From assembly GCA_913009315.1 (NCBI GenBank), contig CAJVZA010000068.1, positions 1 to 9,694 on the forward strand: 9,694 nucleotides of DNA, read 5' to 3'. Shown in pieces: positions 5,219 through 6,979 of the stretch. Below the pieces are notes generated by a model. The model was not told the DNA's origin and searched no databases. It saw only the letters and a list, made by a program, of their open reading frames with translations. A program made the position numbers and the translations under genes. The first letter of the stretch is position 1. Each line of letters begins with the position of its first letter. The DNA is from an uncultured Hippea sp. Lineage in GTDB: Bacteria > Campylobacterota_A > Desulfurellia > JAADFJ01.

Positions 5219-5608
5219 TTAATTTCGGTGCGGTTCCAGCTCCCTCATCTTTCGCGAAAGCAGCTTTCTTGCCAAAACAAAATGATCATATCCTATATCC
5301 GAATTTCCTCCCAAAGCTTCTTCATACATCATTTTACCCAATTTGTCAATCTCTTTGCGGACTTTACCAATAGAAAGTTTGCATAAAATGTCGGCTGCCA
5401 CAAACATATACGGATCACATGATTTGCAAATATAGCTTAATGACATTAATCTGCCATCTTTTAGTGTTCCATAAAGACTCAGCATATCACGATTATCTTC
5501 GCATGCTTTGCCTTCAACTATAATATCGGCATTCTCGATTTTACCCATATTTGTATTTTTTTTATTGAAAAGGCTTTGAAAATATTCTCGTATATTTTTA
5601 TCGCTCAT
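5219..5608 (-). CDS. IscU/NifU-N-like Fe-S cluster scaffold protein, variant ligand set
   Basis: A 129-residue protein resembling IscU/SufU/NifU N-terminal scaffolds, on which Fe-S clusters are built with sulfur from a cysteine desulfurase. GKACEDNRDMLSL aligns with the IscU first-Cys segment (A-C-G-D), keeping Cys36 and Asp38. ICKSCDPYMFVAADIL aligns with the second-Cys segment (YGCGSAIASSS), giving Cys64 with an extra Cys61 just before it. IGKV matches the following V-K-G-K. At the place of the third IscU cysteine (LHCSILA) the sequence reads GYDHFVLA: His109 stands where Cys would be and Asp108 precedes it. The first ~25 residues are a short polar extension. The gene is joined to the desulfurase gene by an ATGA overlap without a clear ribosome binding site, so the two are made together. 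Function as scaffold is inferred from family and context. A sulfur-relay protein is the alternative. Confidence 0.8.
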   Translation of the reverse strand: MSDKNIREYFQSLFNKKNTNMGKIENADIIVEGKACEDNRDMLSLYGTLKDGRLMSLSYICKSCDPYMFVAADILCKLSIGKVRKEIDKLGKMMYEEALGGNSDIGYDHFVLARKLLSRKMRELEPHRN

Positions 5609-6903
5609 TTCGGGAAATCCGGAAGATCGGACAGCTCATCAACAATATTTTCCAATTCATCAATAAATTGGTCAATCTCATGTTTAGTATTATATGCGGC
5701 AAATGATGCACGGTAAAATACCGGATCAAATCCAGGCATTATTTCGAAAAAGTAATCTTCATGAATAGAACACCAGGAATAGACACAAAATTTTCCTTTT
5801 CTTATCATTATATTCTTTCTGATACTGAGTTTCTCGTCAATATCCAACTCATCATCATTGTGCTTTATGACCGGCTTTCTGAAATAAAAGGCCAATATTC
5901 CGGATCGCTTCTCCGGTTCCGGCGGCCCGAGAATTTCAATTGAATCAAGGGTTTTGATTTTTTCAGTTGCATATCTGTTAAGCTCAGTTTCATAATCCGA
6001 AATTTCATCAGGATTGAGTTTAACGGTATATTCGGCAGCCGCTTTAGCTCCGCAGATTCCGGCGTAATGCTGAAGACCTGCTTCAAACCGCTCAGGTATC
6101 TCAAGATAAACAGGCATATAATTATTATCCAGTCTTTCAACTGTTCCTCCTCCAAGTATAAAGGGGGACAACTTTTCAAGATTGCTTTTTTTGCCCCACA
6201 ACACTCCTAAACCGGTTGGGCCCATCATCTTATGAATAGAAAATGCTATGAAATCCGCCTCTACCTTTTTTACATCAACAGGTCTGTGCATAACAGCCTG
6301 GGCAGCATCAAGAATTAAAATTGCGTCAGGGAATAGCTGCTTTAATCTTTTATTTATGTTTATAATCTCATAATCACTTATGAATGTTCCATCAAGGTTT
6401 GATACCCAGCATAAACTTACGACCGAAAGCTTCTTGTCTTTTTTATAAAGATTTTCAATCGTTTCTATAATATTGTCGGCATTGGTATAAATATGCTCTT
6501 TGATTACTCCTTCTTGTTCCAAAATTCTCCAGATAATAAAGTTTGAGTTGTGTTCTTTATCCGTTGTTAAAACAATTGAATTGCTGCTGAATTTTATTGA
6601 TCGGCAAAGAAGATTAAGCGATTCCGTACAGTTTTTTGTAAAAATTATTTCGTCCCGACTGCCGTTTATAAGTTTGGCAATTGCTGCCCTTGACTCATTA
6701 ATTTTTTGATCAACAATCTTACCGAATTTGTGATAGCTTCTTCCGCCGCAAGCCGGATAATGATGGTAATAATCGCATATTTCATTTAAAACCGATTCGG
6801 GTTTCAATGTCATACATGCATTATCGAAATATATCGGAAGCGCTTCATCCATCTTTTCAGATAGTATTTGAAAGTCGTTTCTACACCCTTTTAATCCGTT
6901 CAT
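5605..6903 (-). CDS. SufS-type cysteine desulfurase (class V PLP enzyme)
   Basis: A 432-residue PLP enzyme that most likely removes sulfur from cysteine to form a protein persulfide. In order: YFDNACMTLKP (25-35), an N-terminal substrate/PLP segment; His118 in TTDKEHNSN, stacking on the cofactor; LDAAQA with Asp199 and Gln202; and the Schiff-base Lys225 in SIHKMMGPTGLGVLWG. Then come ERFEAGLQHYAGI and RKGKFCVYSW, where Cys373 aligns with the active-site Cys of the SufS motif RxGHHCA. The C-terminal YRASFAAYNTKHEID is typical of the family. The ATG at 6903 has GAGGT 7 bases upstream. The enzyme is expressed from a near-perfect promoter and is coupled to a scaffold-like protein, which supports a role in Fe-S assembly rather than as a selenocysteine lyase. 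No SufBCD genes lie in the window, and I avoid a symbol because the SufS/CsdA/IscS-like grouping is not certain. Confidence 0.9.
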   Translation of the reverse strand: MNGLKGCRNDFQILSEKMDEALPIYFDNACMTLKPESVLNEICDYYHHYPACGGRSYHKFGKIVDQKINESRAAIAKLINGSRDEIIFTKNCTESLNLLCRSIKFSSNSIVLTTDKEHNSNFIIWRILEQEGVIKEHIYTNADNIIETIENLYKKDKKLSVVSLCWVSNLDGTFISDYEIININKRLKQLFPDAILILDAAQAVMHRPVDVKKVEADFIAFSIHKMMGPTGLGVLWGKKSNLEKLSPFILGGGTVERLDNNYMPVYLEIPERFEAGLQHYAGICGAKAAAEYTVKLNPDEISDYETELNRYATEKIKTLDSIEILGPPEPEKRSGILAFYFRKPVIKHNDDELDIDEKLSIRKNIMIRKGKFCVYSWCSIHEDYFFEIMPGFDPVFYRASFAAYNTKHEIDQFIDELENIVDELSDLPDFPK

Positions 6904-6934
6904 TTAATTTACCTCATTTCTAATTGACTATTGT

Positions 6935-6949
6935 CTACTAAATAAGTAG
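6935..6949. promoter_or_regulatory. Inverted repeat resembling an IscR/Rrf2-family operator
   Basis: CTACT-AAATA-AGTAG: two 5-bp arms around 5 bases. The inner pattern ACT-N5-AGT, with an A/T-only centre, is that of the type-1 IscR site (GACT-RWWWY-AGTC), with the outermost G/C of each half changed. It begins 2 bp downstream of the -10 box of the desulfurase promoter and so covers the expected transcription start, where a bound repressor would block transcription. That it is read by an Rrf2-family Fe-S sensor is inference. No such regulator gene is in the window. Confidence 0.5.
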
Positions 6950-6951
6950 TA

Positions 6952-6979
6952 ATTATAAGAAATCTATAATTGATGTCAA
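6952..6979 (-). promoter_or_regulatory. Consensus sigma-70 promoter of the desulfurase-scaffold unit
   Basis: On the minus strand a perfect TTGACA (6974-6979) and a perfect TATAAT (6952-6957) are separated by 16 bases. The leader to the ATG at 6903 is about 40 bases and contains the operator-like inverted repeat and the GAGGT ribosome binding site. So strong a promoter would be expected to be held down by a repressor. Confidence 0.8.

Follow-up and report, generated by a model that had tools for sequence, protein, structure and literature searches.

A predicted lineage variant of the Rrf2 Fe-S feedback circuit, with one candidate operator motif at a sufS-like gene pair and at the isc operon of an uncultured Hippea species

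Analysis of the window, meaning the whole stretch of 9,694 nucleotides from an uncultured Hippea sp. considered here, revealed on its minus strand a promoter that reads into two genes, one for a SufS-family cysteine desulfurase and the other for a diverged U-type protein (Table 1). In the direction of transcription its elements are arranged as TTGACA, a spacer of 16 bp, TATAAT, the two bases TA and the word CTACTTATTTAGTAG, a candidate operator located 31 bp ahead of the ATG of the desulfurase gene. The two hexamers with this spacing constitute the sole 12/12 match to the consensus promoter in the window, which bears out the near-perfect promoter claimed in an earlier note on this DNA, where the site was placed 2 bp past TATAAT and TATAAT itself 16 bp from TTGACA. 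The same note had proposed an IscR-like site with an ACT-N5-AGT core at this place, and both sequence and position were confirmed, CTACTAAATAAGTAG at 6935-6949 being a palindrome that carries ACT-N5-AGT as its inner core.

Table 1. Coordinates of the features discussed; positions refer to the window unless another contig is named.
Feature	Position	Strand	Basis
Diverged U-type (NifU/SufU-like) partner protein	5219..5608	-	weak NifU-like similarity; locus comparison
SufS-family cysteine desulfurase	5605..6903	-	TIGR01979 match; tree
Likely ribosome-binding GAGG ahead of ATG at 6903	6912..6915	-	sequence
Candidate operator CTACTTATTTAGTAG (minus-strand reading), TAC-N7-GTA dyad	6935..6949	-	sequence, match counts, conservation
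Predicted transcription start region, ~7 nt past -10, within operator	6943..6947	-	inferred from promoter geometry
-10 hexamer TATAAT	6952..6957	-	sequence; identical in G001 and G002
-35 hexamer TTGACA, 16-bp spacer to -10	6974..6979	-	sequence; kept in G001 and G002
IscR-like Rrf2 protein	contig C50, L057 8112-8522	-	Rrf2 homology, beside isc operon

Regarding the controlled gene pair, the desulfurase matches TIGR01979 with 298 bits, under that model's cut-off of 475, and its partner is only weakly NifU-like, the third IscU ligand position of this U-type protein not being a cysteine. Genes encoding SufB/SufD (PF01458) were detected in none of the three genomes of the genus and in all 14 controls, from which it follows that the second desulfurase pair would work without the SUF scaffold; the genus has two minimal desulfurase/U-type pairs in place of SufB/SufD. 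The description of the downstream genes as Fe-S assembly genes is thus correct in essence, qualified by the remote NifU likeness of the partner and the absence of SufB/SufD from the genus. In the tree, the SufS-like protein falls inside WOR-3/Stahlbacteria sequences, in a nine-row clade (100/99) outside which further WOR-3 sequences are placed, and relatives of the U-type partner adjoin SufS in those same WOR-3 loci. The WOR-3 relatives have no such operator upstream of SufS, and this SufS was not found in other members of the class, which is probably Desulfurellia. Since the pair is nested in WOR-3 in this way, it was probably acquired from another phylum by horizontal transfer and then brought under a host operator. 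The U-type protein has no Pfam match, and its occurrences so far are confined to this genus and to the SufS loci of WOR-3/Stahlbacteria.

Genome-wide counts of the palindrome show no enrichment over chance. The bare ACT-N5-AGT core has one match in the whole window compared with 1.2 expected by chance, which is not significant, and the 1.74-Mb draft genome, of which the window is contig C68, has two matches to the full CTACT-N5-AGTAG palindrome compared with four to the reversed control pattern. The operator is significant only because of its conservation and of a second site at the isc operon. Other candidates were rejected as sites, namely a near-identical CCACTAAATAAGTAG at C16:27053 and an exact palindrome at C22:4604, each within coding sequence, and CAACTAATTTGGTAG at C2:56244, inside a third desulfurase-like gene.

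The operator ahead of sufS is carried by three genomes only, those of the present organism (G000) and two congeners, and both of the latter keep the repeat ahead of the orthologous operon, which is the conservation that the earlier note had asked to be checked. In the closer congener (G001, 92% protein identity) promoter and palindrome are identical to those of the window, even though a repeat element that has matches elsewhere in these genomes now adjoins the -35 on its upstream side, while in the more distant one (G002, 79% protein identity) both hexamers, the 2-bp gap and the dyad, there CTACTTAATAGGTAG, are kept with unchanged spacing. From the -10 through the operator end 18 of 23 positions are identical in G002, compared with 10 of 22 downstream; the flanks are about half identical, the intergenic sequence around the site having diverged. 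The changes in the G002 dyad affect the loop and one arm base and it remains TAC-N7-GTA, the inner core reading GGT in place of AGT both here and at isc.

A second site was detected in the promoter of an iscS-iscU-dsrE-like operon on contig C50 of the same genome, the IscS of which is 79% identical in G002; the isc operon is present in two of the three assemblies, that of G001 being without the contig that bears it. The G000 isc promoter reads TTATACTTGACTTAAATGGTAGAGATAGTATAAT, and 33 of 34 bases of this promoter-operator region are identical in G002, compared with only 14 of the next 60 bases upstream. The 14-base word ACTTAWWWRGTAGA is common to the suf operator and the isc promoter of both genomes, so that the motif does recur at other Fe-S genes of the same genome, and at zero mismatch it occurs only at the suf and isc sites in the three genomes (G000, G001, G002); as these sites themselves supplied the pattern, the informative part of this search is the absence of other matches. 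A pattern built from the suf sites alone has an exact match in the G002 isc promoter and a one-mismatch match in that of G000, the chance expectation of the latter kind of match being ~7e-4 per 222-bp region. The isc dyad is GAC-N7-GTA and is positioned in the -35/spacer, unlike the suf dyad, which lies past the -10.

Three Rrf2 genes were found in the genome, in keeping with the earlier expectation of such a regulator, and one of them, IscR-like and with three cysteines, adjoins the isc operon on C50, being convergent with iscS-iscU-dsrE in both G000 and G002. Its product has the Rrf2 domain (PF02082, 118 bits) and is by sequence closest among solved structures to the Thermincola IscR 4cic (E 4e-21), but it scores 106 bits against the IscR equivalog model TIGR02010, below the cut-off of 207.55. 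The three cysteines are arranged as C-x7-C-x7-C, kept in G002, compared with C-x5-C-x5-C in Escherichia coli, and the minor-groove wing RGPKGGYKL is retained, with the Arg59 and Gx2GGx2L features present. The base-reading residues of E. coli IscR have been named as Ser40, Glu43 and Gln44 (PMC9973013), and at these positions the protein differs by S40K, E43S and Q44K in G000 as well as in G002. Among the next relatives in other phyla the majority have retained YLEQ or YLE at the recognition-helix position, and no adjoining ACT-N5-AGT that could be linked to Fe-S genes was found for IscR relatives of other phyla. The change of the operator arm from GAC to TAC fits the altered reading residues, as co-evolution would give, which is a correlation and not proof; the earlier idea that the outer half-site base marks a lineage-specific variant gains support from the changed recognition helix. 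The iscR gene comes after polA and has no operator upstream, and it therefore shows no sign of autoregulation.

Regarding known systems, RisR of Myxococcus xanthus, a regulator of Rrf2 group IS6, acts when cluster-bound as a repressor of isc as well as suf, through the footprinted core GAC-N7-GTC (PMC9973013). In each system there is one Rrf2 protein with three cysteines, a single N7-spaced dyad in the promoters of isc and of suf or the second desulfurase, an overlap of the sites with promoter elements, and base-reading residues that differ from those of E. coli. The arms differ, being TAC-N7-GTA (suf) and GAC-N7-GTA (isc) here and GAC-N7-GTC for RisR, as do the second target, a SufS/U-like pair without SufBCD, and the cysteine spacing, x7/x7 compared with C92, C102 and C108 in RisR. 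With the E. coli system the present one shares a homologous regulator and the ACT-N5-AGT core, and at isc the left half-site, ATACTTGACT, fully fits the type-1 consensus ATASYYGACTRWWWYAGTCRRSTAT (PMC3899308, PMC6599224), whereas the outer arm base has changed from G to T. Over the 25 bp of this consensus the isc sites match at 19 positions and the suf site of the window at 17, a score that is common, as 71 of 315 200-bp windows of the organism's own sequence reach at least 17. E. coli suf is controlled through a type-2 site and activation by apo-IscR (PMC12594620), while here one motif serves both operons; the Thermincola potens IscR (4cic) differs in having the recognition helix YLEQ where YLSK is found here. 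The predicted wiring thus resembles that of Myxococcus RisR more than the type-1/type-2 scheme of E. coli IscR.

The palindrome is therefore likely to be the operator of the C50 IscR-like Rrf2 repressor, which would control both the sufS-like/U-like pair and iscS-iscU, with DNA binding, the cluster and repression all predicted. With the transcription start taken ~7 nt past the -10, the operator extends over about -4 to +11 at suf, and when Fe-S supply is adequate a cluster-loaded dimer would bind TAC-N7-GTA there and the half-variant GAC-N7-GTA within the -35/spacer of isc, sterically blocking RNA polymerase at both promoters; on loss of the cluster the repressor would leave and both gene pairs would be transcribed. 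That the holo form represses is assumed by analogy with RisR. The altered recognition helix would account for the arm TAC in place of the IscR/RisR half-site GAC, and the SufS pair, horizontally acquired, would have been put under the host repressor. The feedback circuit by an Rrf2-family Fe-S sensor that the earlier note envisaged is thus supported, as a lineage variant with one motif for both operons, by the conserved site, the IscR-like Rrf2 and the common word at isc. The balance is about even for the more specific proposition that a WOR-3-like desulfurase/U-type pair came under the host Fe-S-sensing Rrf2 via a newly evolved host-type operator in a genus without SufBC, with repressor and operators co-evolving to TAC/GTA through residues 40, 43 and 44.

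It is unlikely that the dyad is instead the operator of another regulator, either the RirA/NsrR-like Rrf2 protein of contig C1, the CymR-like one of C29 or an unrelated factor answering to cysteine, sulfur, iron or NO. With three Rrf2 genes in the genome and cysteine desulfurases as targets a CymR-like sulfur signal would be plausible, and the best equivalog match of the C29 protein is the CymR model; however, of the three proteins that of C50 alone has its gene next to a target operon, as seen in both genomes where it is present, the dyad agrees in half-site and spacing with the GAC-N7-GTC core of IscR/RisR, and no ACT-N5-RGT site is present upstream of the other two Rrf2 genes. Very improbable is a palindrome that arose by chance in an AT-rich promoter and persisted only through RNA polymerase contact and initiation constraints, a reading with which the lack of enrichment of core and palindrome would agree: the same 14-base word lies elsewhere in the isc promoter, and this different position means that initiation constraints cannot explain the common word, while the G002 dyad, altered in loop and arm, has still kept TAC-N7-GTA. 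The least probable reading, a 5'-terminal RNA hairpin stabilising or regulating the mRNA, for which the inverted repeat would be at the transcript 5' end, was rejected since transcription is predicted to begin within the repeat, the minimum-energy fold lacks the hairpin (z -1.3) and the isc repeat is upstream of the start.

The IscR-like repressor would extend the predicted Fe-S feedback circuits to a Campylobacterota lineage that has received little study, with a single Rrf2 word governing two minimal pairs of desulfurase and scaffold where SufBC is absent. A second family of the same class (f3) likewise has an Rrf2 gene convergent with a desulfurase/scaffold operon, nifSU, that bears a conserved dyad on its promoter. 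This dyad, AGTTA-N9-TAACT over the nifS -10 in six genomes (L188, L189, L190, L191, L192, L193), is a second, distinct candidate Rrf2 operator, and the helix and wing residues differ as well, so that sister lineages seem to pair distinct Rrf2 helices with distinct operators. With this second Rrf2 and dyad in a neighbouring family, the co-evolution of repressor and operator becomes directly testable.

Further elements were observed in these genomes. On contig C9 (L058:310-345), TTGACA followed by ATACTTTATAAGTAGA lies ahead of a tungstate-type ABC transporter (tupA), a possible third target; the site is kept in G001 as ACTTTATAGGTAGA and absent in G002, and it was left out of the regulon for this reason. 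Several loci of these genomes, including L068:4720-5010 of G001 and positions 1-160 of the window, bear a dispersed repeat that has an inverted terminal stretch; in G001 one of the copies closely precedes the -35 of the sufS promoter, and at the left end of the window related pieces are present. The word AAGATAATTTATATAGTAGAGG recurs upstream of several G002 genes (L166, L178, L181) and is apparently another repeated element.
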